Source of the DNA: Synechococcus sp. WH 7803
Lineage (GTDB): Bacteria; Cyanobacteriota; Cyanobacteriia; PCC-6307; Cyanobiaceae
DNA length: 64,000 nucleotides
Assembly (NCBI GenBank): GCA_000063505.1
Contig: CT971583.1
Coordinates: 1,333,918-1,397,917, forward strand
Reading direction: 5' to 3'
In this document: positions 2,093 to 13,829 of the stretch, piece after piece
Numbering within the stretch: the first letter of the stretch is position 1
Layout: the number at the start of each line of letters is the position of its first letter
Notes under the pieces: generated by a model
Databases searched by the model: none
The model's input: only the letters and a program-made list of their open reading frames with translations
What the model was told of the DNA's origin: nothing
Translations under genes and position numbers: made by a program

Positions 2093-4264
2093 TCAACGAA
2101 CGAAGAGCATTTCCCGGTACGAGGGCAGGGGCCAGCGATCGTCGTCAACAAGATTCTCGAGGGCATCCACGGTCTCGCGAATCTGCTGCAGGCGGGGCAG
2201 CAGAACATCCGCACAGTGCGTCATGGCGGCGGCGGTGTCGCCGTTGTGCAACTGGTGTAACTCTCCGGCCAGCGCCGTTGCATGGTCATCCATACGCCCG
2301 TGCAGCTCAGCGATCTGATGGAGTACGCGGGTTTCGGGTTGAAGTCCGATCGACTGCTGCTGTTGCAGGCTGGATGCCAGAGCGCTCAGATGGTTTTGAA
2401 CAGCGGGGCTGATCTGCGTGCGCACCATGGAGAGCGCCACCTTGGCCTCCACTTCAATCGCAAGGGTGTACTGCTCTCCATACACCTCGTAGCGGCTTTC
2501 CATCTCCACCGGCGAGATCACGCCATGCCGCTGGAACAGGCTTCGCACCTCTTCACGGCGCAGCACCGGCAGAGCTTCGGCGGTGTTGCGGAGATTTTCG
2601 AGACCACGGTCGTCGGTGGCTTCGCGATGCCAGGCGTCGGAGTAGCCATCACCGCCGAACACGGCGGCGCCATGCTGATTCATGATCTGCCGAATCACGG
2701 ACGCCGCTGACTGCTCGAGACTCTGGCCCGTGCCCATCTCCGCTTCAAGGCGATCGCTGATCCATTCGAGGGAATCAGCCATCACGGTATTCATGGCCAC
2801 GAGGGGCCCTGCGACTGACTGACCAGAGCCAACAGCACGGAATTCAAACCTGTTTCCGGTGAAGGCGAAGGGAGACGTGCGGTTGCGATCTCCGGCATCT
2901 TTGGGGAATTCCGGAAGGGTATCCACGCCCAAGCGCATCACCCCGCCGTTGGAACTTCCTGTGGCCTCTCCGCGCTGGATCTGTTGGAAGACCTGCTCCA
3001 GCTGCTGTCCGAGGTAAACGGAAATAATCGCCGGGGGAGCTTCGTTCGCGCCGAGGCGATGGTCATTGCCTGCCGTAGCCACAACAGCACGCAACAGAGG
3101 GCCATGACAGTGCACACCGCGGATCACGGCAGCACAGAACAACAGGAACTGAAGGTTGTCGTGAGGTGTACGGCCGGGATCCAGAAGATTCCCCTGGGTG
3201 CTGTTCCCAACGGACCAGTTCACATGCTTTCCGGAGCCGTTGATTCCGGCGAACGGCTTTTCATGAAGCAGGCAGGTGAAGCCATGGCGCTTGGCGGTGC
3301 TGCGCAGCGTTGTCATGATCAGCTGCTGATGGTCCGTCGCCACATTGGCGGCTTCGTGAACCGGCGCGATCTCGAACTGGCCGGGAGCGACTTCGTTGTG
3401 ACGCGTCTTGGCTGGAATCCTCAGTCTGTAGAGCTGACTCTCCACGTCTTGCATGAACACCTGCACGCGTTCCGGAATCGCTCCGAAATAGTGGTCGTCA
3501 AATTGCTGACCCTTGGGTGATGCCGCACCGAACAAGGTGCGACCGGCAAGAAGTAGGTCGGGCCTGAGGGTGGCGAACTGGGTGTCAACGAGGAAGTATT
3601 CCTGCTCAGCCCCGCAGGAGCTGTTCACCGGTGCCACCTCATCATTGCCAAGCAGGTGAAGCAACCGCTTCGCCTGGCGATTCATGGCGGCATTCGAGCG
3701 CAACAGCGGCGTTTTCTTGTCGAGCGCCTCGCCGGTCCAGCTCACAAACACGGTGGGGATGCAGAGCGTCACGCCATTGGGGGTGCGCATCAAATAAGCC
3801 GGACTGGTGATGTCCCAGGCCGTGTAACCCCGGGCTTCGAAGGTGGAGCGGATGCCTCCATTGGGAAAGGAGCTGCCGTCAGGCTCCCCCTGCACAAGAA
3901 GCTTCCCTGAGAACTCATGGATCGCCTGCCCATCACCCTGCGGACTGATGAAGCCGTCATGCTTCTCCGCGGTGGAGTTGGTGAGCGGATAGAAAACGTG
4001 GGCGTAGTAATGGGCACCCTGGGACACAGCCCAGTCCTTCATCGACTGGGCCACCACATCGGCAACAGCAAGATCGAGACGCCCACCGTCACGAATCACG
4101 CGTCGAACCGCTTTGTAGGACTCCTTCGGAAGAGCACTTTTCATGCGCGCAAGCGTGAACACGTCGCTGGCCCAGATCTCTTCAAGAGGTTGCGCAGGTG
4201 CACAGTCCACGGGCGTGCGCTGCTGGATGGCCTGAAGAGCAGCCAGACGGGCGGGATGGGGCAT
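2093..4264 (-). CDS. glnN: glutamine synthetase type III (GlnN)
   Basis: Makes glutamine from glutamate, ammonia and ATP in the cytoplasm. At 723 residues it has the length of type III enzymes (types I and II are roughly 350-470). Metal and substrate blocks are readable: [10 protein letters not shown] (218-227), NEVAPGQFE (290-298) and [11 protein letters not shown] (341-351), with the type III block [12 protein letters not shown] further on. In cyanobacteria GlnN commonly supplements or replaces GlnA and is nitrogen-regulated through NtcA. I see no GTA-N8-TAC box in the 47 bp separating it from the upstream arsJ gene, so it may be transcribed from within or before arsJ. Confidence 0.95.
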
Positions 4265-4311
4265 GGTGCAAGAAACCGCAGGGCAGCGGGATGAAGCTCG
4301 TTAACCCGACG

Positions 4312-5565
4312 CTAAGCCGCCGTCAGCCGAACGGCAGGAAGCCGCAGGCTGGTGAGCCAAGAGAGCAACACCAACACTGATGACGTCCAGAGGCAGGCCT
4401 GCATTCCCGAGCTGGGCGTCCCGCCGATCAGAAACACCGCTCCGGACAGCAGCGTTCCAACCAGACGACCGGCCGCATTCGCCATGTAATAGAAGCCCAC
4501 GTTGAGGCTCACACTCTCCGCATCCGTGTAAGCCAACACCATGTAGGAGTGGATGGAGGAGTTCATGGCAAACACGACTCCGAAGGCGGCCAGACCACCC
4601 ACGATTGCCACAGTCACATCGACCTCACGCAACAGAGCGATGGCAATCAATGCAGGAATCGCGGTGAGCACCGCGCTCCAAAACTGCACAGCCGATGCCC
4701 CAGGACTTTCACGCTGTCCCCAGAGGCGACGCAGTCCTGGCGCCGTGCCCTGCACGATGCCGTAACCGATCACCCAGAGGCCGAGAAAGCCGCCGATTTC
4801 CCAGAATCCCCAGCCAAGGGAAGCTTCGAGAAACACAGGCAGTGCCACCACAAACCACACATCGCGGGCACCGAACAGGAAGAACCGAGCGGCAGAAAGC
4901 ACATTGATGCCCTCACTCTTGGAAAACAGAGAGGAAAACGCCGGTTTGGCCTTCATCTTGCCGATCTCGCCCGGCAACACCAGGGTGACGAGAAAAGCCA
5001 AGGCAAGACCTGCAGCCATCCAGGCCACAGCAGCATTGAAGCTCAAGGCTGTCAGCAACACACCCCCGAGGAAAAATCCAACACCCTTCAGGGCATTTTT
5101 CGAGCCGGTGAGAATGGCCACCCATTTGAACAGTTGCTTTTCACCCTTCTGAGCATCATCCGGCGTTTCCGGAACCACCGTTTTGATTGCGCTCTTCGCG
5201 CTCATCTTGTTGAGATCTTTGGCAATCCCACTGATCGCCTGAGCGACCATCACGTACACCACGCTCAGCAGCTTCGGCCAGGATTCCGCGACGGGAACCA
5301 GCATCAACAACGCCAAAATTTGCAGAAGCGTGCCCACCCAGAGGGTGAGCCGCAATCCATAACGCGCTCCGATCCAACCTCCATAGAGATTGGTGAGAAC
5401 CCCGAAGAACTCGTAGAAGAGAAACAGGAAGGCGATCTCAAGAGTGGAGTATCCGAGCTCGTGGAAATGGAACACAACCAACATGCGCAAGGCGCCGTCG
5501 GTGAGCGTGAACGCCCAGTAGTTGGCGGTCACGATTCCGTACTGCTGCAGAGCGGAGAGCTTCAC
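4312..5565 (-). CDS. arsJ: ArsJ, MFS efflux permease for 1-arseno-3-phosphoglycerate
   Basis: 417-residue multi-span permease beginning [20 protein letters not shown]. The start is the GTG in a GTGA overlap with the gap stop (5562-5565); this excludes the 19 N-terminal residues of a longer frame. Established knowledge: ArsJ exports the unstable arsenylated 3-phosphoglycerate made by GAPDH when arsenate replaces phosphate, giving a detoxification cycle. The overlapping gap gene upstream and the divergent arsR gene are the standard context, and they raise confidence well above what sequence alone would give. The protein has about a dozen hydrophobic segments with a charged central loop near residues 145-160 ([11 protein letters not shown]). 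Confidence 0.9.
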
Positions 5566-6584
5566 GCGTCCAGCCCCACCACGTGACAGGTGAGGTCTGC
5601 CATCCGGCAGCTGTAGCCCCACTCATTGTCGTACCAGGCGAACACCTTCAACTGGTTGTCGTCGACCACCATCGTCGACAGGGCATCGATGATCGAACTG
5701 CGGTTGTCGTTGGTGTAATCGCACGACACCAAGGGGCGCTCCTCGTAGCCCAGGATTCCCTTCAACGCGCCCTCTGAGGCGGCCTTGAACGCGGCATTCA
5801 CCTGCTCGACGGTGACGGTCTGCTTGAGCTCGAACACCGCATCGGTGAGCGATCCATTCAGAAGTGGCACCCGCACGGCATGGCCGTTGAGCTTGCCCTT
5901 GAGTTCGGGGAAGATCATGGCAATCGCCTTGGCGGAGCCCGTGGTGGTGGGGATCAGGGATGTGAGGCCGGAGCGGGCCCGGCGCAGATCGCTCTTGAAC
6001 GCATCGATCGGCACCTGGGTGTTGGTGATGTCGTGAATGGTGGTGATCATTCCGTGCTCGATGCCGAAGCTCTCGTGCACCACCTTCACCACGGGAGCGA
6101 GGCAGTTGGTGGTGCACGAGGCAGCCGTCACCAACTTGTGCCGCTCAGGCTCATAAAGGTCGTGATTGATGCCGTAAACGATGTTGAGTGCCTCCTCGCC
6201 GGCCACTTCACCCTTCACCGGACAGGCCACCACCACCCGTTTCAGCCCCACCTGCTCGAAATAGGGCGTGAGGGTCTCTGGCGTTTTGATTTTGCCGCTG
6301 GCCTCGAGCACCATCTCCACCCCGCGCTCCGTCCAGGGCACGGCTGTGGGGTCTTTCTCGCTCGACCAGGTCAGTGGTGATCCCTCCACGGAAAAACCAT
6401 TTGCATCGCTGGTGATGTTGCGATCCCAGCGTCCATGCACTGAGTCGAACTCCAGGAGGTGAGCGGCGGTCGCAGCATCACCGGCGGGGTCATTCACATG
6501 CACCAGCTCGATGCCGGGGCGTCCCCACAGCGCTCTGAACACGAGGCGACCGATTCGCCCGAAGCCATTGATGCCGATCCGCAT
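5562..6584 (-). CDS. gap: glyceraldehyde-3-phosphate dehydrogenase of the arsenate-resistance operon
   Basis: 340 residues. The Rossmann start [13 protein letters not shown] (1-13) with Asn31-Asp32 after the second strand points to NAD-type cofactor use, and ASCTTNC carries the catalytic Cys157. I chose ATG 6584 because the GAPDH family begins exactly there; a longer frame adds 61 non-homologous residues. In ars operons this isozyme forms 1-arseno-3-phosphoglycerate from glyceraldehyde-3-phosphate and arsenate, which ArsJ then exports. It overlaps arsJ by 4 bp and faces arsR across 121 bp, so it is almost certainly ArsR-controlled rather than the main Calvin-cycle or glycolytic GAPDH, which is expected elsewhere in the genome. 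Confidence 0.93.
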
Positions 6585-6705: not shown

Positions 6706-7038
6706 ATGCCATCCATCGAGGCCAAGCACCGCTCTCTCGATGCAGCGCAGGCCTGCAGCCTCCTCAAGGCCTTGTCGGATCCCCTCCGCCTTCAGGTTCT
6801 TGAGCAGCTCTCCACAGGAGAACGCTGCGTCTGCGATCTCACCAGTTCCCTCGCGCTCTCCCAGTCGCGCCTGTCCTTCCACCTCAAGGTGATGAAGGAG
6901 GCGGGTCTCCTCAGCGACCGCCAAAGCGGGCGGTGGGTGTATTACCGGATCAGGCCGGAGTCACTGAATGCCTTGCAGGGCTGGCTCCAAGACCTCACCC
7001 ACTCCTGCCAAACCCCGGCCAGCAGCTGCGCTGAATAA
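6706..7038 (+). CDS. arsR: ArsR/SmtB-family metalloregulatory repressor
   Basis: 110-residue winged-helix regulator: [15 protein letters not shown] (21-35), then the metal loop ERCVCDL with Cys41 and Cys43, then the recognition helix [13 protein letters not shown]. The third cysteine of the E. coli-type site (CVCDLC) is Thr46 here, but two further cysteines lie in the C-terminal tail (Cys101, Cys108) and could complete an As(III) site, as in ArsR variants with relocated sites. Divergent from gap-arsJ, so it probably represses that operon and itself, with release by arsenite. The sensing chemistry is inferred, not shown. Confidence 0.92.
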
Positions 7039-7043
7039 CTGCG

Positions 7044-7667
7044 ATGGAGCACTCCACTCACGATGCACGGCTGTTTTTCCCGGCTACGCAACGCAATGTG
7101 CAAGCGATCGGAGACGTGCTGGCCGACTCCCTCCCTTCCGCAGGACTCATTCTCGAACTGGCCAGCGGGTCGGGGGAGCACGGCGTTGCCTTCCAACAAC
7201 GATTCCCCAGAATCACCTGGCAGTGCAGCGACCCAGAGCCCGACCACTGCCGCAGCATCAGCGCCTGGATTGCCCACGCGGGACTGACCTCTTCCATGCC
7301 ACAACCTCTGGCTTTGGATGTGTGTGCACCCAACTGGGTGCAGGATCTGCCAACAGCACCAGCGATGGTTGTGGCGGTGAACCTTTTGCATATCTCGCCA
7401 TGGGAGTGCACGCGGGCCCTGATGCAGGGCTCAGCGCGTCAGCTGTTACCCGGCGGTCGACTCTTGATCTACGGGCCATTTCGCCTTGAAGGGAAGCATG
7501 TGAGCGCAAGCAACCAACTGTTCGACACATCGCTGCAGGAACGCAATTCCAGCTGGGGGGTGCGCGATCAAGAGGCCGTGATCGAGGAAGCCCAAGGGGC
7601 AGGACTGTCGCTTCAAGACATCCGCTTGATGCCGTCAAACAACAGAATCATCCTTTTCGAGCGCTGA
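7044..7667 (+). CDS. DUF938 family class I SAM-dependent methyltransferase
   Basis: 207 residues. The SAM-binding motif LELASGSGEHGVAF (37-50) near the N-terminus and the opening RLFFPATQRNVQAI are characteristic of DUF938 proteins (METTL26-like). It starts 5 bp after arsR, so it is likely read from the same transcript and may share its arsenic control. Substrate unknown. It is not ArsM: the conserved ArsM cysteines are absent. The C-terminal block MPSNNRIILFER is also family-typical. Confidence 0.75.
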   Translation: MEHSTHDARLFFPATQRNVQAIGDVLADSLPSAGLILELASGSGEHGVAFQQRFPRITWQCSDPEPDHCRSISAWIAHAGLTSSMPQPLALDVCAPNWVQDLPTAPAMVVAVNLLHISPWECTRALMQGSARQLLPGGRLLIYGPFRLEGKHVSASNQLFDTSLQERNSSWGVRDQEAVIEEAQGAGLSLQDIRLMPSNNRIILFER

Positions 7668-7682
7668 AAACCGAGGCTTTGG

Positions 7683-8645
7683 ATGGAAAGCACACTGATA
7701 CAGGGCTTGGGCTTTGTGCTCGTCGTGCTGGCCTGCACGGCCAATGATTCCCTGCAGACCCTCGGAACATTCCTGGTCAGCAACCGGGGACGAACACCAC
7801 TCTGGCTGCAAGTGCTCTGGATCTGCTTGGCAACGGCAGCAATCCTGATGTTCGGATGGATCCGCTATCACGGCGATCCGGCCTGGGATCGCTTGGGATC
7901 ATTCCCTCCCCCGGAGGCATTCAGCTGGTTTTATCTGATCCCACCGCTCACGATTGCAGCATTGACCTGGTGGGGAGCTCCGATCGGAACTTCGATTCTG
8001 GTGCTGTCTGCATTTGCACCGATGCAGACCACTGCGCTGGTGAAGACATCAGCACTGGGGTATCTGCTCGCCCTGGTGATCAGCTTGCTTCTCTATGGCC
8101 TGGGGCTCTGGCTGCTGGAGAAACGGTTCAGCCGCAGCACTGAGCCCTCTTCAACTGCGCTGCCGAAACGCTGGCTGATCCTGCAGTGGTTCAGCACAGC
8201 TTGGCTGTGGTGTCAGTGGATGATTCAAAACGCCGCCAGCCTGTATGTGTATCTGCCGAGGCGACTGAGCCTCGAGGAACTGTTGTTAAGCATTGCCGTG
8301 ATCTGCGCGGCCCTCGCCCTGATCTTTGCCTGGGGAGGTGGACCGATCCAATCCATCATTCGCCGCAAGATCAACATCCACGACATCCGATCCGCAACAT
8401 TGATCGACCTTGTATTCGGAATGATTTTGTTCACCAGGGCGCTCAGCATGTCGATGATTCCCCTCAGCACCACCTGGGTGTTCCTTGGCTTATTGGCCGG
8501 TCGAGAGTTGGCCCTGGTGGCACGCCTGCATCAAGCGTCGCCTGGGCAAGCCATCAAGCAGCTGGTGAGAGATCTGTTCAAAGCCAGCGTCGGCGTTGGC
8601 GTGAGTATCGCTGTGGCGTCGTCTCTGCAACTGGTCTTGATGTGA
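7683..8645 (+). CDS. multi-span membrane protein, divergent PiT (phosphate transporter)-like
   Basis: 320 residues with about eight hydrophobic segments, starting 15 bp after the DUF938 gene. Two motif pairs recall the internal duplication of PiT phosphate permeases: ANDSLQTLGT (20-29) with APIGTSILVLSA (99-110) in the first half, and QNAASLYVYL (182-191) with IPLSTTWVFLGLLAG (259-273) in the second. PiT proteins have GANDVANA-type and P(V/I)STTH-type motifs at the equivalent places. Here Asn-Asp is kept in repeat one and ST-T in repeat two, but each repeat is degenerate. Position in the ars cluster suggests phosphate or arsenate handling. Homology is inferred; it could be an unrelated membrane family. 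Confidence 0.6.
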   Translation: MESTLIQGLGFVLVVLACTANDSLQTLGTFLVSNRGRTPLWLQVLWICLATAAILMFGWIRYHGDPAWDRLGSFPPPEAFSWFYLIPPLTIAALTWWGAPIGTSILVLSAFAPMQTTALVKTSALGYLLALVISLLLYGLGLWLLEKRFSRSTEPSSTALPKRWLILQWFSTAWLWCQWMIQNAASLYVYLPRRLSLEELLLSIAVICAALALIFAWGGGPIQSIIRRKINIHDIRSATLIDLVFGMILFTRALSMSMIPLSTTWVFLGLLAGRELALVARLHQASPGQAIKQLVRDLFKASVGVGVSIAVASSLQLVLM

Positions 8646-8680
8646 GGCCTGCGTTACTCCGGTCCCCGGAGCACGCATCA

Positions 8681-8743
8681 AGTCACCCCGCAGATACCCC
8701 AGAGTCACCCACAAGTTGCTCTGCAGTCACTCTGAGCTAAGAT
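8681..8743 (+). promoter_or_regulatory. phased AGTCAC repeats and candidate promoter before the RHH gene
   Basis: AGTCAC(C/T)C occurs at 8681, 8703 and 8725, exactly 22 bp apart (two helical turns). A -10-like TAAGAT lies at 8738-8743, with a weak -35-like TTGCTC at 8717, so the third repeat falls between them. The downstream gene encodes a ribbon-helix-helix protein, a class that binds short direct repeats, so autoregulation is a reasonable inference. Confidence 0.4.
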
Positions 8744-8767
8744 CCAAGCATTCAGCCGTCCCGCTCC

Positions 8768-9004
8768 ATGGCCGTCCCCCGGGAAAACCAGGTGAAGCTG
8801 ACGGTCTCCGTTCCGCCGAGCCTGCACGTCTTATTGCGCAGCTGGGCTCTCTGCGAGGGGCGAGAGCTCACCAGCGTTGTTTTGCAGTGCGTTGAGTTGT
8901 CGGTGCGCCAACTGAAAAGCAACGGGTCCATTCCTGCGGGTGCGATCCGCAATTACGAGATGGCTTGCGAAGAGCGCCTCACCGCTGGCGGAGCACTGTC
9001 ATGA
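8768..9004 (+). CDS. ribbon-helix-helix (CopG/Arc-like) small protein
   Basis: 78 residues. Predicted layout: one beta strand QVKLTVSVP (about 8-16), helix A PSLHVLLRSWALCEG, a turn at RELTS, then helix B VVLQCVELSVRQL. This is the RHH order, in which strands of a dimer contact DNA. The ~25-residue tail is polar. It overlaps the next gene by 4 bp (ATGA at 9001-9004), so the two are translationally coupled. Repressor plus coupled partner is also the arrangement of RHH-antitoxin operons, but the partner shows no toxin motif I recognise. RHH is a fold-level reading without a family hit. Confidence 0.6.
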   Translation: MAVPRENQVKLTVSVPPSLHVLLRSWALCEGRELTSVVLQCVELSVRQLKSNGSIPAGAIRNYEMACEERLTAGGALS

Positions 9005-9402
9005 CCTTGATGCAAGCCACCCTTGAGCAGGCCTTGTTGGCCCCGTGCATGGAGGCGGTGATCGCCGTGACCGAGCGGTATCAGTTTCTGGAGGATCACC
9101 AGGGTGCACGCGTGTTCACCGCCTACCGGGAGATCGACCACGTGATCCAGCTGGGCTTCAGTGAAGACCTTGGGGGACAGACCCTCGACCTGGAAAATCG
9201 CGGATTTCAACTCCTGGAAGCGCGGGAGGGAACCCGACGGGAACATCGCCTGCTGATGCTCACATTGAAAGAAATCGGTTACGCGCCCCACTACAACCCT
9301 GAGTTCTTCCAGGCTTCAAAAGGCCTGCTACGCCATCTCAGAAATCTGGGATGGCCGCTCGGCGAGCTTGCTCAGCTGCTCAAAAGCCAACGCACGCACT
9401 AA
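9001..9402 (+). CDS. unrecognised 133-aa partner of the RHH protein
   Basis: Start ATG 9001 overlaps the RHH gene's TGA. The product is soluble, acidic-to-neutral and mostly helical: MTLMQATLEQALLAPCMEA..., with a central IDHVIQLGFSEDLGGQTLDL and ENRGFQLLEAREGTRREHRL, then a basic C-terminal LLRHLRNLGWPLGELAQLLK. No catalytic motif, signal peptide or membrane span. It may be a regulator partner, an RHH cofactor or, less likely, a toxin. Its end overlaps the next convergent gene by 4 bp. Confidence 0.6.
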   Translation: MTLMQATLEQALLAPCMEAVIAVTERYQFLEDHQGARVFTAYREIDHVIQLGFSEDLGGQTLDLENRGFQLLEAREGTRREHRLLMLTLKEIGYAPHYNPEFFQASKGLLRHLRNLGWPLGELAQLLKSQRTH

Positions 9403-9674
9403 TCACGCCGACGGCGGCGGATTCCGCGACCGATGAAATCACAATCCAAGGGGGACAGTTCCCCGATTCGGCAAGCTTGATCCAGCACGGCTTGCCGCTG
9501 CGATGGAGTCTGGGCATCGTGCTTTTCGAGAACATCCCTCACCGCGGGTGTGATCAGGCGCTGGCGCTGAAGCTCATCCAAGCTTTGGGCCCACGCAGTC
9601 GCGCTCCATCCTTGGCCATCAGTGCTGATCAGCACCCCCACCATCAGCAGCAGCCAGCGCAAGCGCATCAGCAT
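9399..9674 (-). CDS. small exported protein, about 91 aa
   Basis: From ATG 9674 the product starts MLMRLRWLLLMVGVLIS and has a signal peptide ending near ATAWAQS. The mature part (SLDELQRQRLITPAVRDVLE...) is helical, with two cysteines (QACRIGELSPLDCDF) and an Arg-rich end. ATG 9668 is an equally possible start, and a longer frame to 9719 adds residues before the signal. GGCGAG precedes ATG 9674. It is followed in the same direction by nothing close; the next gene is convergent. Function unknown. Confidence 0.55.
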   Translation of the reverse strand: MLMRLRWLLLMVGVLISTDGQGWSATAWAQSLDELQRQRLITPAVRDVLEKHDAQTPSQRQAVLDQACRIGELSPLDCDFIGRGIRRRRRD

Positions 9675-9685
9675 CTCGCCACGGG

Positions 9686-9931
9686 TCAGAAGGTCTCTCC
9701 GATGCCTGGGCCATACCAACCGTCAGGCCAGAAATCATCGTCGTAATCCACACTCCACTGATTTTTGGGAATCGGTCCCGATGTCGGTTGGGTGCCATCC
9801 AGACAGCCATCCGCCGTGGTGAAGCCACTGGAAAACGCTTCACAGGTCACAGGGTCCTGCTGCGCCAGGGCTGGCAACACATGAAGAACCGCGGCCAAAG
9901 CCACAACGACAATGCGCATGCCCGATCTCAT
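9686..9931 (-). CDS. small exported protein, about 81 aa
   Basis: Start taken as ATG 9931 (MRSGMRIVVVALAAVLHVL) or 9919. Signal peptide ends near PALAQQD. The mature ~50 residues include two cysteines (VTCEAF, DGCLDG) and an acidic aromatic tail SVDYDDDFWPDGWYG. It lies 23 bp downstream of the GDSL hydrolase gene and 11 bp upstream of another small exported protein, in the same direction, so the three probably form one transcript. No family recognised. Confidence 0.5.
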   Translation of the reverse strand: MRSGMRIVVVALAAVLHVLPALAQQDPVTCEAFSSGFTTADGCLDGTQPTSGPIPKNQWSVDYDDDFWPDGWYGPGIGETF

Positions 9932-9954
9932 CACTGCTGGGATTCTGATGGGCG

Positions 9955-10623
9955 TCAGGTCCAAGTGAGCTGTGTCTGCAACTCCAGACCTGCCCAACGC
10001 TGGAGGGCACCCCACGAGCGAACCCGCTGCTCGATCCAGTGGTGACCGGCACTGTTGAGGTGAATCCCATCGGGCTCAATCCAGCCAAGCCAACCCGGCT
10101 CTGCCTGCATGGCTGCGTGGAGAGGCAAAAAAGGAACATCCACCTCAAGACAGGCCTCTTCAATCTGAGCTTCATGCACAGCGATGTCGTGGTTGCTGTA
10201 CCAGAGGCAGTCGGCAAACGGCATCACCTGTTCATCCACTGCCGAGAGGCCAAGTACAAACACCTGGGTACGCGCTGTCATGGCGTGCAGCAACTGTTCG
10301 TACCCGAAGCGCAAGGCCTGAGCCTCGAGCGGCTGCCGGCCGTCGGCACGACCAACCCTGGCTGAATCGTTAAGCCCCACGGCCAGCAGCAAAGCCTTCG
10401 GCTGTTGGCGTCGAAGCTCACCACGACAGGCCCACTCCGCTTCCCATCGTTGCGACACCGACTCCAGACCGTCACCACGAATCCCCAGTGGATAGATCAC
10501 CGGTGCATCGGGCAGCGCCATCCAGGCACGCCGTAAGCGCTCGCACCAGCCACCCCCCTCGGTGTCTCCCCAACCGACCACGCCGCTGTCACCAATCACC
10601 ACCAGTTGACGGGGATGGCGCAT
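9955..10623 (-). CDS. GDSL/SGNH-family hydrolase
   Basis: 222 residues. Block I is VVIGDSGVVGWGD with nucleophile Ser13, block III is GLND (83-86), and block V is DGIHLNSAGH with Asp185 and His188, so the Ser-Asp-His triad and oxyanion residues are complete. No signal peptide, so probably cytoplasmic. Family members act as esterases, lipases or thioesterases; the substrate cannot be read from sequence. It lies 25 bp upstream (gene order) of phnE's end in the opposite-neighbour sense: both are minus-strand with 25 bp between them, so it may belong to the end of the phn transcript. Confidence 0.85.
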   Translation of the reverse strand: MRHPRQLVVIGDSGVVGWGDTEGGGWCERLRRAWMALPDAPVIYPLGIRGDGLESVSQRWEAEWACRGELRRQQPKALLLAVGLNDSARVGRADGRQPLEAQALRFGYEQLLHAMTARTQVFVLGLSAVDEQVMPFADCLWYSNHDIAVHEAQIEEACLEVDVPFLPLHAAMQAEPGWLGWIEPDGIHLNSAGHHWIEQRVRSWGALQRWAGLELQTQLTWT

Positions 10624-10648
10624 GGATTCCGTCGCTCACATCGGGTGA

Positions 10649-12178
10649 TCAGCTTTGCAGCCAGCGGGTCCGGCATTGATCGCTGAGCCACTCCCCGAGC
10701 AGGGTGATCAGGGCATAGGCCCCAATCAACACCACAACAGCATCCCAGTGAAAGGAGCTGAGCGATTCCAGTAATTGCCAACCCAGTCCACTGCCACCGA
10801 TCAGGCCCACCACAACCGTCTCCCGCAGAATCACATCCGTGCGATAGGCCCCGTAAGCCAGATACCCAGGGCTGCGCGGCGTGAACAGGCCATAGAGCCA
10901 GCCGAGCCGTGCTGACGCTCCAGAGGTGGCCATGGCCTGTTGTTGATCAACAGACTGCTGCTCCAGTTCTTCGCGCAACAGACGTCCCATCACCCCGCCG
11001 TTGTGCAATCCAAGCGCCAGCGCACCGATCGCAAGGGTTGGACGGTTGCTGAGCAGCAGAAGCAACACGGTCAGCGGTGGGGGGATGAGACGCAGCAGCG
11101 CCCAGGCAGGATTGAGAGCCACCTGCCAAAACCGCGAGGGGGCCAGCAACATCGCCAGTGGGGGGAGGCCAATCGCAATCCCAGCAGCCAGCACGGTGAG
11201 CAGGAGCGTCTCAACGATCAGCGGCAACCAGGGAAGCTCTGCAGCTGCTTGCGTAAGACCGCGCCAGTCCGGCAGCGCCAGTCCTTGCCAAACGACAATT
11301 CCTGAATCCGGCAGCAGCACCTGCAGCCAGAGGCCTCCTGCCATCCCCGCCACAATCACCCCCGCAAGGAAGAGACACAGGCGTCGCTGGCCAGCCTGGG
11401 CCTTGCGGGTTTGACGTCGCCAAAGCGTGAGCAGCAGCTCGAGAGCAACACTGAGGAGTCCCAGCATCCACAGCCCACTCCAGAGCTCTCTGAACTGAAG
11501 CGACTGCAGGCTGAGCTGCAGATCAGTGCCCAGGCCTCCCAAGCCAAAAACGCCCAAAAGCGTGGCACTGCGCAGAGCACACTCCAGGCGGTAGCCGCCA
11601 TAACTCATCAACACGGTGCCCATTGCGGGAGACAGTGCCGTGAAACAGGCGGCCAGGGGGGGTGCACCACCCTGCAACAGAGCCTGAAGCCTGGTTGGAT
11701 CGAGCGCCTCCAGCTGATCACGCCACACCCGAGCCACCAGGGCCGCATAGGGAATCGTGATCGCTGCGACCGCCACCGCAGGATGCAAGCCAAGAACCTG
11801 AAGGAGCAGCAGTCCCCAGATCAGTTCGTGCACCGATCGAGGCAGTGCCAGGGAGCGACGCAGAATCAATGCTGGCCAGGTTGGCCAATTCCACGTTTGC
11901 AACAGCCGTTCTGAGGCACAACAGCCAAGCAGCACCCCAAGAACCAAGCTGAGGCTCCAGCCAGCCAGAGCCATCGCCAGCGTGACCTGCAGCGCACTGA
12001 ACAGAGCTGTGAGCAGCGCTGGGTCCAGGGATGGATGCACTGCTGCCGCGAGACATGTCAACAAGATCTCCACGCCGCCGGCATGAAGTCCGGCAACAAC
12101 GGTGATCAACACCGGCAGCAAGGCCAGAGCTGGCAGCAGGGCAAGCGCGGGTGCACTGGGCCGGGGCAACGCCATCAC
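10649..12178 (-). CDS. phnE: PhnE-type ABC permease, two permease domains fused
   Basis: 509 residues, about twice a single PhnE permease (roughly 260-290). Two copies of the binding-protein-dependent permease signature are visible: GYRLECALRSATLLGVFG then GGLGTDL in the first half, and GAYRTDVILRETVVVGLIG then GSGLGWQL in the second. The transporter could therefore be built from one fused permease chain instead of two subunits. It overlaps phnC by 4 bp. Substrate class is phosphonate, phosphite or phosphate; no phn lyase genes are in this window to decide. Confidence 0.88.
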   Translation of the reverse strand: MMALPRPSAPALALLPALALLPVLITVVAGLHAGGVEILLTCLAAAVHPSLDPALLTALFSALQVTLAMALAGWSLSLVLGVLLGCCASERLLQTWNWPTWPALILRRSLALPRSVHELIWGLLLLQVLGLHPAVAVAAITIPYAALVARVWRDQLEALDPTRLQALLQGGAPPLAACFTALSPAMGTVLMSYGGYRLECALRSATLLGVFGLGGLGTDLQLSLQSLQFRELWSGLWMLGLLSVALELLLTLWRRQTRKAQAGQRRLCLFLAGVIVAGMAGGLWLQVLLPDSGIVVWQGLALPDWRGLTQAAAELPWLPLIVETLLLTVLAAGIAIGLPPLAMLLAPSRFWQVALNPAWALLRLIPPPLTVLLLLLSNRPTLAIGALALGLHNGGVMGRLLREELEQQSVDQQQAMATSGASARLGWLYGLFTPRSPGYLAYGAYRTDVILRETVVVGLIGGSGLGWQLLESLSSFHWDAVVVLIGAYALITLLGEWLSDQCRTRWLQS

Positions 12179-12933
12179 AGTGCGTAGAGATCCTCAAGGT
12201 CTGCAGGCATCACAGCGGTCGCCGGAGCGTCGATGCGCAAACGTCCTTCGCGCAGGGCGAGAACTCGATCAAAACGATGGATCAAATCCGGGCGATGCAG
12301 CGACACCACCACCGCTTGCGCACCATGGATCAGGGAGCCATCGGCGTTCTTCTCCAGAAGGCGATCGAGCACTTCAGCGGCAATGGCTGGATCCAGGCTG
12401 GCCAGGGGCTCATCAGCCAAAAGCAGAGACGGTTGTTGCCGGAACAATCGGGCCAGAGCAACCCGTTGCCGTTGACCACCCGATAGCTGCTGGACGGGGC
12501 GATCCAGACCTTCGGGAGCCAGAACCTGAGGATCCAATCCAGCCTGACGCAAGCACTGCAAACAAGGCGCTGCACCGATGGTGAACAGAAGATTCGCCAG
12601 CGCCCAGGGCAGTCCACGCCGGCCCAGCACGCCGGCATTGATGTTCTGGCCAACACTGAGCTCCTCAATCAAGCGCAGGTCCTGCCAAAGGGTGCCGATT
12701 TCACAGCGCTGACGGCGCGTGCGCTGCCGAAGACTCTTGCCGCGCCAGAGGACCGTTCCCTGGTGCGGAGTCAGGCTGCCATTGATCACGGAAATCAGTG
12801 AGCTCTTTCCGGCACCGCTGGGCCCCAGAAGGGCCACGCGCTCACCGCGATGGATGCGCAACGACAGGTTGAAGAGCCGGTCTCTCCGAGAGCCGGCCAA
12901 CCGCACCTGTTCAAGCTGGAGCAGAGAACTCAA
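12175..12933 (-). CDS. phnC: PhnC-type ABC transporter ATP-binding protein
   Basis: 252 residues with Walker A GPSGAGKSS (37-45), ABC signature LSGGQ (150-154), Walker B LLLADEP (170-176) and a D-loop ASLD. Residues 57-120 include the Arg-rich TRRQRCEIGTLWQDL block typical of PhnC. It overlaps both phnD (4 bp) and phnE (4 bp), giving a tightly coupled phnD-phnC-phnE order, which is the order seen in picocyanobacteria. Energises uptake of phosphonates or phosphite at the inner membrane. Confidence 0.9.
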   Translation of the reverse strand: MSSLLQLEQVRLAGSRRDRLFNLSLRIHRGERVALLGPSGAGKSSLISVINGSLTPHQGTVLWRGKSLRQRTRRQRCEIGTLWQDLRLIEELSVGQNINAGVLGRRGLPWALANLLFTIGAAPCLQCLRQAGLDPQVLAPEGLDRPVQQLSGGQRQRVALARLFRQQPSLLLADEPLASLDPAIAAEVLDRLLEKNADGSLIHGAQAVVVSLHRPDLIHRFDRVLALREGRLRIDAPATAVMPADLEDLYAL

Positions 12934-13829
12934 CGAATCTTGCCGAGCTGGCGACCCACCGTCTCGATCGGCTTGTACTGGCTGGCCTCGGCGGGAATGA
13001 AGCGCTTGGCAGCAAACAGTTCAAGAATCGTGGCCTGGCGAGGGGTGGATGGCTGAATGGCCAGAATCGCCTTCTGCAGGCGCGTTGTGAATCCCGAACC
13101 AAAGCGTTGATCCAGATCAGGGCGTGCCACCCAGTGGTAATCCACATACTCAGGGGTTCGCCAGATCACGCGCACCTTGTCGGTGTTCACCCGCCCCTGC
13201 TTGAGCGCCGACGTCCACACCTGCTCGTTCAGGGCACCTGCCTGGTAGGCCCCGCTTTGCACCAAGGCGATGGTGGCGTCATGACTGCCACTGAAGCCGG
13301 CCCGTCCCCCACTGAACTGACTGGGTGAGACGCCGGCTTTCGCCAGGAAATGCTGAGGCATCAACCGTCCAGACGTTGAACTCTCCGAGCCAAAGGTGAA
13401 TCGCTTTCCGCGCAGACTGGTGAGACCGTTAATCGACTGAATCGGCTGAAGATCCGCTGAGGTATTGGCAATGAACACACTGCGGAAGCGGGCGTCAATA
13501 TCCCTCTGCGCCAAAACCTTGGCCCCAGACGTCTGAAGCCGCGCCTGAACACCGGTCAAACCTCCAAACCACACCAGATCGAGGCCTCCGGTCCGAAAGG
13601 CACTCACAGCGGCCGGGTAGTTGCTGACGGGTACGTAGCGAACGGTCACCTTCAGACGATCGCTGAGCTCATCGGCAAGCTGTCCGTAGAGACGATTCAA
13701 ACGCTCGGGGTTCTGATCAGGGATGGCGCCGACGCGCAGCGCCGGTTTGGCAATCGACGGCAGAACCGACACTCCCTGGCAGAGAAGCAATGCCAATAAG
13801 GCGACGGCCCCACGTTCTCGGCTGGGCAT
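12930..13829 (-). CDS. phnD: PhnD-type periplasmic phosphonate/phosphite-binding protein
   Basis: 299 residues from ATG 13829, which begins a clear signal peptide (MPSRERGAVALLALLLCQG, cleavage near residue 27); a longer frame adds 60 unlikely residues. Family landmarks are LVWFGGLTGV (85-94), the phosphorus-oxyanion loop SSTSGRLMP (150-158) and GSHDATIALVQSG. Ser/Thr residues of the SSTSG loop contact the phosph(on)ate group in PhnD structures. Its start is 43 bp after the aspC stop, so it may be read through from aspC as well as from a local promoter. Prochlorococcus PhnD1 relatives bind phosphite, so phosphite is a live alternative to phosphonate. Confidence 0.9.
   Translation of the reverse strand: MPSRERGAVALLALLLCQGVSVLPSIAKPALRVGAIPDQNPERLNRLYGQLADELSDRLKVTVRYVPVSNYPAAVSAFRTGGLDLVWFGGLTGVQARLQTSGAKVLAQRDIDARFRSVFIANTSADLQPIQSINGLTSLRGKRFTFGSESSTSGRLMPQHFLAKAGVSPSQFSGGRAGFSGSHDATIALVQSGAYQAGALNEQVWTSALKQGRVNTDKVRVIWRTPEYVDYHWVARPDLDQRFGSGFTTRLQKAILAIQPSTPRQATILELFAAKRFIPAEASQYKPIETVGRQLGKIR

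Follow-up and report, generated by a model that had tools for sequence, protein, structure and literature searches.

Organization of the locus

The window, a 64,000-nucleotide stretch of the 2.37-Mb genome of Synechococcus sp. WH 7803 (contig CT971583.1, positions 1,333,918 to 1,397,917; genome designated G000), contains an arsenic cluster with arsJ and its associated GAPDH gene on one strand and, on the other, arsR followed by a DUF938 gene and an ORF coding for a putative permease. The features are as follows:

4312..5622, minus strand: arsJ (NF033734, 580.9 bits, cut-off 400); longest ORF, the true start may be internal
5562..6584, minus strand: ArsJ-associated GAPDH gene, divergent (NF033735, 555.2 bits); start set at the Met of MRIGING
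6706..7038, plus strand: ArsR-type regulator gene (arsR)
7044..7667, plus strand: DUF938 gene, methyltransferase-like, directly upstream of the permease ORF (PF06080, 205.9 bits)
7683..8645, plus strand: PiT-fold permease ORF, 320 aa, with two sets of six predicted helices
7668..8677, no strand: extra stretch holding just the permease gene, missing at the equivalent site in G009

The gap between arsR and DUF938 is 5 bp and that between DUF938 and the permease ORF 15 bp, all three genes lying in line on the plus strand; the latter spacing is as stated in the initial annotation, which had also placed the ORF correctly. No promoter- or terminator-like site is found between DUF938 and the permease ORF, by a scan that yielded no more sites than did shuffled sequences. 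The G+C content of the permease gene, 57.5%, is unremarkable for the window (59.8%). A mobile origin was considered and rejected, there being no match among phages for the window protein and none among plasmids for one distant family member used as the query.

The permease gene is followed by two ORFs, of 78 aa and 145 aa (window positions 8768–9402), with no Pfam match for either and no NCBIfam match for the shorter one; the 145-aa ORF (orf145) comes after DUF938 in genomes devoid of the permease. An ABC transporter is encoded on the minus strand ca. 2 kb downstream of the permease (10649–13826). It comprises a PhnE-like double permease and a PhnC-like ATPase, both scoring under the cut-off, and a binding protein scoring over it as "putative selenate" (TIGR04553, 339.7) and phosphate/phosphite/phosphonate (TIGR01098) binding protein. 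PhnE is likewise located downstream in G004, G021, G009, G029, and G006.

Predicted fold and relationship to PiT

The AlphaFold2 model of the window protein, built with 80 aligned rows, has a pLDDT of 92.9 and a pTM of 0.91. Its top match in VIA-align is 6L85, the solved sodium-dependent phosphate transporter (PiT), with a Z of 20.4 and an rmsd of 4.0 (292 of 320 residues aligned), the runner-up reaching a Z of 6.1. A family member from Cerasicoccus, modelled from an alignment that excluded the window protein and most Synechococcus rows (pLDDT 90.1), likewise matches 6L85 with a Z of 20.5 and 294 residues aligned (runner-up 6.0), both matches being those of predicted models from one prediction method. 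In Foldseek no match in the PDB reached E ≤ 0.001 (best E 0.17), and 6L85 was absent among its best 50 rows; because this ranking missed 6L85, the fold claim leans on the VIA-align re-check of the Foldseek candidates. A confident fold unrelated to PiT, which the initial annotation had named as the outcome contrary to its reading, did not appear and is rejected, as 6L85 stands far above every other solved chain listed for both models. The match to 6L85 makes the term PiT-like, used in that annotation, correct at the level of the fold.

Kinship in sequence is only partly shown, through weak signals in relatives. The window protein itself has no Pfam or NCBIfam match over the cut-off and gives no row at E ≤ 10 against Pfam PHO4 (PF01384, gathering cut-off 33.7 bits). 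Eight of ten distant members scored singly list PHO4, with at most 25.1 bits against the cut-off of 33.7, and PF01384 is listed at E ≤ 0.01 by 22 of 80 family members (best E 2.9e-6), the next family being listed by two. Voltage_CLC, found at 2.5e-6 and so as strong as the best PHO4 row, was seen in one of the 80 members and taken as chance, as were polyamine aminopropyltransferase, DUF7269, and a neutral amino acid transporter, all short and either far under the cut-off or with E values of 0.012–0.33.

A profile made of nine PiT proteins of related genomes was searched against 961 neighbour proteins and the family members of loci L071–L150, a set that did not contain the window protein itself. 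Places 1–28 after PiT itself were all taken by family members (best E 0.00091), three of which pass the HMMER inclusion line. The family profile run by HMMER against the neighbours and PiT retrieved no significant PiT protein (best E 0.61), and none of the solved chains at E ≤ 10. When the two profiles were compared with each other by hhalign, as the initial annotation had proposed, the match was not significant over the whole length (P 0.019 and 0.022), and one pair of halves reached P 0.00055, the reversed controls of the half-by-half comparison giving P 0.0015 and 0.0017.

Sequence motifs and the internal repeat

The two half-molecule motif pairs on which the initial annotation was founded are present, with uneven statistical support. 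Repeat 1 comprises AND (residues 20–22) and GAPIGTS (98–104), and repeat 2 IQN (181–183) and IPLSTT (259–264), D22 and P100 being 78 residues apart and N183 and P260 77 residues apart. The motifs are located in the window as follows:

7743..7769, plus strand: repeat-1 ND motif, N21–T29 (NDSLQTLGT), with D22 aligned to the Asp of PiT GAND
7974..7994, plus strand: repeat-1 PVST-type motif, G98–S104 (GAPIGTS), with Gly at residue 102, elsewhere in the family Ser or Ala
8226..8240, plus strand: repeat-2 signature position, Q182–S186 (QNAAS), family consensus QDLAN
8460..8489, plus strand: repeat-2 PVST-type motif, P260–G269 (PLSTTWVFLG)

In the family profile the PVST/PLST pair is at the top of 120 offsets (offset 160), and the ND/QN pair alone ranks 21st of 202 at offset 161. 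The joint two-motif score was matched by 9 of 2000 column shuffles, its best offsets being 157 and 160 and not 161 and 160. The N-half and the C-half of the family are weakly similar in hhalign (P 0.048; reversed controls 0.13 and 0.67). In the structure prediction the helices form two matching series of six, the first at residues 5–33, 40–61, 70–73, 82–96, 103–111, and 113–151, and the second at 162–188, 197–217, 223–227, 235–254, 263–282, and 287–319.

In each of four MAFFT runs D21 of PiT lands on D22 and the Ser of the first PVS on position 102, presumably equivalent to S113 of human PiT2; the second signature Asp of PiT, that of repeat 2, is unaligned in all four. We infer that position 183 is the equivalent of this Asp because of the 78/77 spacing and because the first long helix of repeat 2 contains it, just as that of repeat 1 contains D22. 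Residues D28, E55, S113, H502, D506, E575, and S593 of human PiT2 are reported in an excerpt of PMC3126765 as critical for Pi transport; D22 would correspond to D28 and position 183 to D506.

Of the GANDVANA-type signature the N-half of the window protein (ANDSLQTLGT) retains N and D, the third motif residue being changed from N to Q. The C-half contains no such signature with Asp, the inferred site reading QNAAS in the window protein and QDLAN in the family. The statement that most signature residues are changed is true, but much of the change is common to the whole family and not specific to the window gene. The putative permease is built like PiT but not classed as PiT, because it lacks both a passing curated score and the C-half signature.

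Distribution of the family

A second (core) copy of the gene, 49% identical to the window protein, is located elsewhere in the same genome (C1:663600-664547). At least one copy is carried by 25 of the 31 genomes of the genus, and by 21 of the 24 whose completeness is at least 90%. A wide scan of one genome per species (84,980 species), with the genus alignment A1 as the query, revealed at least 570 relatives of ca. 320 aa among 586 candidate stretches; a genome-contig scan with the window protein as the sole query returned no relative. Eighty of the at least 570 relatives were kept, annotated as Cyanobacteria, Gastranaerophilales, Bacteroidota, Pseudomonadota, Acidobacteriota, Aminicenantes, Myxococcota, Gemmatimonadota, Verrucomicrobiota, Bdellovibrionota, and others. 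One locus labelled Bifidobacterium breve (L100) is probably mislabelled or contaminated; it clusters with freshwater Synechococcaceae. The family is called unnamed in the sense that no Pfam or NCBIfam model scores over the cut-off for the proteins whose scores were inspected.

The wide-scan loci were found by the patterns STTWVFLG and WGAP[VI][SG]TS[FI], and therefore conservation at residues 262–269 and 97–105, F105 and S102 included, is favoured by the detection itself. Alignment A3 required ND...TLG, which accounts in part for the invariance of N21, D22, T26, L27, and G28; D183 and N186 played no part in the choice of rows. Of the 81 family ORFs, A3 lost L145 (late start), and L082 (X) was dropped.

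A gene for a membrane protein that by eye looks TSUP-like (TauE/SafE; L038 7198–7977 and similar loci) is arranged tail to tail with the core copy in several genomes, and one uncultured bacterium (L147) carries tandem family copies at 2617–3618 and 3687–4688. G035, a related genome in which the present family was not found, encodes a short diverged PHO4 protein in a frame of 361 aa (G035:C37:24741-25691, L062; 145.5 bits).

The five-genome branch

The window gene belongs to a branch of five genomes, G000 together with G025, G006, G024, and G016, whose copies are 96, 94, 71, and 70% identical to it, respectively. Among 201 sampled genomes of the taxonomic family, in which the other four branch genomes do not show, the next-best match to the window protein is 53%. 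In the tree the branch, represented by four rows, has a support of 100/100 on a stem of 1.4 and is placed, also with 100/100, inside a picocyanobacterial group of 44 of the 100 rows, with a warning from the tree program of long branches meeting, the window's branch among them.

The branch is distinguished by four residues. The comparison scores four of the five branch members (the broken G025 copy is excluded from A1, which holds 23 copies) against 80 other rows, i.e., the 79 rows of A3 and the G000 core copy. Position 183 is Asp in 80/80 other rows and Asn in 4/4 branch rows; position 186 is Asn in 72/80 and Ser in 4/4; position 102 is Ser in 71/80 or Ala in 9/80 and Gly in 4/4; and position 105 is Phe in 80/80 and Ile in 4/4.

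The dN/dS ratio is 0.115–0.146 for the three ars-linked copies and 0.114 between G024 and G016, the core copy in the trio having 0.032–0.054. Judged by these ratios, the branch gene is constrained by purifying selection, more loosely than the core copy. The G025 copy (G025:C1:1442362-1443321, L003) has one in-frame TGA near residue 82.

The synonymous distance between G000 and G025 amounts to 0.46–0.66 for arsJ, GAPDH, arsR, and glutamine synthetase, to 0.29 for DUF938, and to 0.10–0.19 from the permease to PhnE. Set against G025, the window from ca. 7044 to 12178 looks like a recombined stretch including the permease.

Linkage to arsenic genes

An arsJ match is present in 18 of the 31 genomes of the genus, and the permease lies at arsJ in three of the 18, the window genome, G006, and G025, which are sister species. 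The cluster of arsJ–GAPDH with arsR–DUF938 occurs in 13 genomes, 12 of the genus and G034 (the window, G025, and 11 of the 20 arsJ loci examined, one being that of G006), and the permease comes after DUF938 in three of them, G000, G006, and G025. Nine of the ten permease-free clusters have orf145 on the DUF938 side; it was not found at the G034 cluster. The flanking sequences of G009 and G029 agree with the window as far as the DUF938 stop and once more from 8678 and 8688, respectively, and therefore ca. 1 kb with just the permease gene is extra in the window. The simplest reading is that the permease arrived by insertion, the alternative being its loss from G009 and G029.

In G024 and G016, the closest relatives beyond the trio, whose genomes give no arsJ match, the permease is situated among other genes. 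A further 100 family loci were examined with their flanks, 80 of them originating from the wide scan and the other 20 from the genus and family; arsJ, GAPDH, or DUF938 relatives are present only at those of G025 (L032) and G006 (L033). ArsR-like proteins, members of a common family, are encoded at two more loci, ca. 5 kb and ca. 1 kb away. The link with the ars cluster is genuine and recent, is confined to three sister species, and is no rule. The attachment to the cluster claimed in the initial annotation thus holds for the window but is not a conserved one: linkage to arsJ was looked for in other genomes and found in 3 of 13 clusters, all of sister species, and apart from G006 and G025 linkage to arsenic genes elsewhere is largely missing. 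These counts agree with the remark in the same annotation that such a gene is not a standard part of ars operons. As an ars component, DUF938 with its tie to the arsJ pathway is a stronger candidate than the permease; no literature on DUF938 together with arsenic was found.

Phosphate genes near distant relatives

Phosphate genes were found near the family gene in at least 8 of 80 loci, which may represent four or five independent cases; these genes were sought by two BLAST queries and a scan of neighbours, which makes 8/80 a lower bound. A Na/Pi cotransporter gene is located directly downstream (90–240 bp) in L095, L108, L112, and L115, which form one Saprospiraceae group, a gene for a PstS-like protein lies directly upstream in L116 and L136, and a PhoU gene adjoins the family gene in L140. 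In L143 genes for PhoU, a Pst permease, and a PstS-like protein are situated 1.7 to 7 kb upstream. The remaining operon-like neighbours that were identified are mostly unrelated (cysS, dxr, SelO, EngA, FtsZ, and others).

The scan covered 117 neighbours at 52 loci, i.e., 115 of the 153 listed and two L143 proteins added by hand, one of them PhoU; the 38 left out are mostly near-duplicates. PhoU (5) and Na_Pi_cotrans (4) are on top, HAD hydrolase also having 4, among the best 25 of 128 families, where an arsenic family with a single hit would not show. The five PhoU rows are those of L095, L108, and L112, lying inside the Na/Pi cotransporters, and of L140 and L143; L115 falls under the limit. 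Flanks of at least 3 kb on both sides are available in 59 of the 80 loci, and the operon list covers 74 of them, the family ORF having been lost in L078, L091, L103, L109, L116, and L144.

Comparison with known systems

The permease shares with PiT/SLC20 (PF01384; 6L85) the fold over the whole length, the two repeats, the ND and PxST motifs, and D22 at the position of the GAND Asp. It differs from PiT in its size (ca. 320 residues and not ca. 400), in the lack of any PHO4 score for the window protein, in the repeat-2 signature, GxNDxxN in PiT, QDLAN in the family, and QNAAS in the window protein, in the third residue of the N-half motif, Gln instead of Asn, and in Gly replacing the Ser of PVS. 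With members of the unnamed PiT-fold family, such as the core copy, it is 39–53% identical over most of the length in the aligned rows, and the one distant member folded has the same fold. Unlike the window protein, the other rows retain D183 and F105 (80/80 each) and mostly N186 and S102, and the contexts examined are not an arsJ cluster.

The adjoining genes correspond to the ArsJ–GAPDH arsenate pathway treated in an excerpt of PMC9601151, both arsJ and GAPDH scoring over their cut-offs. ArsJ, however, is an MFS protein, and the permease is of another family and not a conserved member of the cluster. Phosphate-type transport beside arsenic genes has a precedent, as the pst and phn operons for phosphate and phosphonate uptake occur in arsenic islands according to an excerpt of PMC3834237, and a pairing of the permease with ars genes would therefore have a parallel. 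The pst and phn systems, in contrast, are ABC systems, and the term "pit" has 0 occurrences in the text of PMC3834237.

Proposed function and alternatives

What is established for the gene is a confidently predicted fold matching solved PiT along its length, membership in a family that spans many phyla, the presence of another copy elsewhere in the genome, and purifying selection. We read it, with a probability of about 0.6, as coding for a PiT-fold (SLC20-like) putative oxyanion permease, a secondary transporter of an unnamed, widespread family, with altered coupling or selectivity. In such a permease the two inverted repeats would combine their ND and PxST motifs into a single binding site, which would accept a phosphate-type oxyanion moved together with a cation. 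The window's branch has Asn in place of the presumed repeat-2 Asp and Gly in place of a repeat-1 Ser. With the presumed acid of repeat 2 lost, coupling cations on that side are expected to be fewer or absent and the selectivity to be different; the changes may be supposed to alter function and not to abolish it. In the three sister species the permease gene is in line with arsR and is flanked by DUF938 and the following gene; if read from the arsR promoter, it would be expressed together with ArsJ and arsenate export and could sustain oxyanion (phosphate) traffic under arsenate. The in-frame TGA in one of the three ars-linked copies speaks against a needed role there.

A more specific version, in which an oxyanion permease, uncoupled or differently coupled through the Asp-to-Asn change in repeat 2 and the Ser-to-Gly change in repeat 1 and placed under arsR control, provides one Synechococcus lineage with a new route out of, or round, arsenate, seems improbable. 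The substrates that such a carrier exports or exchanges might be arsenate and phosphate, or an arsenical that the DUF938 enzyme produces. The stop codon in one ars-linked copy also weighs against an arsenic-specific transporter, a new ars component exporting arsenate or an organoarsenical from the arsR–DUF938 unit, which we consider unlikely even though the 15-bp gap in line with arsR and DUF938, the maintenance of arsR–DUF938 itself beside arsJ–GAPDH in 13 genomes, the altered conserved sites in the branch, and purifying selection on the permease would all suit it. The permease is missing from 10 of these 13 clusters, and the G024 and G016 copies (70–71% identity) share the residue changes in genomes without an arsJ match.

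It is possible, if less than probable, that the gene is a hitch-hiking paralogue, a second PiT-fold permease that arrived by chance behind DUF938 and is unconnected to arsenic or to arsR control. A single gene placed between two genes that adjoin each other in other genomes, the unrelated contexts of other family copies, and the broken state of the G025 copy would be consistent with this, but the permease is kept under purifying selection in the trio, and no promoter- or terminator-like site was found in the interval after DUF938, by a scan that gave no more sites than shuffled sequences did. The word "degenerate" in the initial annotation implies in turn a decaying PiT-like pseudotransporter that is being lost. 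Altered residues at conserved sites and the TGA in G025 point that way, as does a dN/dS that is about two- to four-and-a-half-fold the value for the core copy (0.115–0.146 vs. 0.032–0.054). The ratio is nevertheless far below 1 in the three species and 0.114 in the other two, and identical four changes occur in all four intact rows, whose split is deep enough for 70–71% identity; we give decay little credence.

Significance

The main interest of the permease, an oxyanion carrier on our preferred reading, lies in a hidden relative of PiT at the level of the fold more than in the ars link. Marine picocyanobacterial genomes are said in an excerpt of PMC10284923 to be without a Pit symporter, and a PF01384 search of the genus gave 0 of 31 genomes over the cut-off. 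A PiT-fold relative missed by the curated models scanned is nonetheless present in 25 of these 31. With its D183N change, the five-genome branch offers a natural variant at a position that may be one of the two signature Asp sites of PiT, which would make the coupling mechanism testable. If this relative carries phosphate, the view of how abundant ocean phototrophs take up phosphorus changes, and a function is suggested for a family found across many bacterial phyla.
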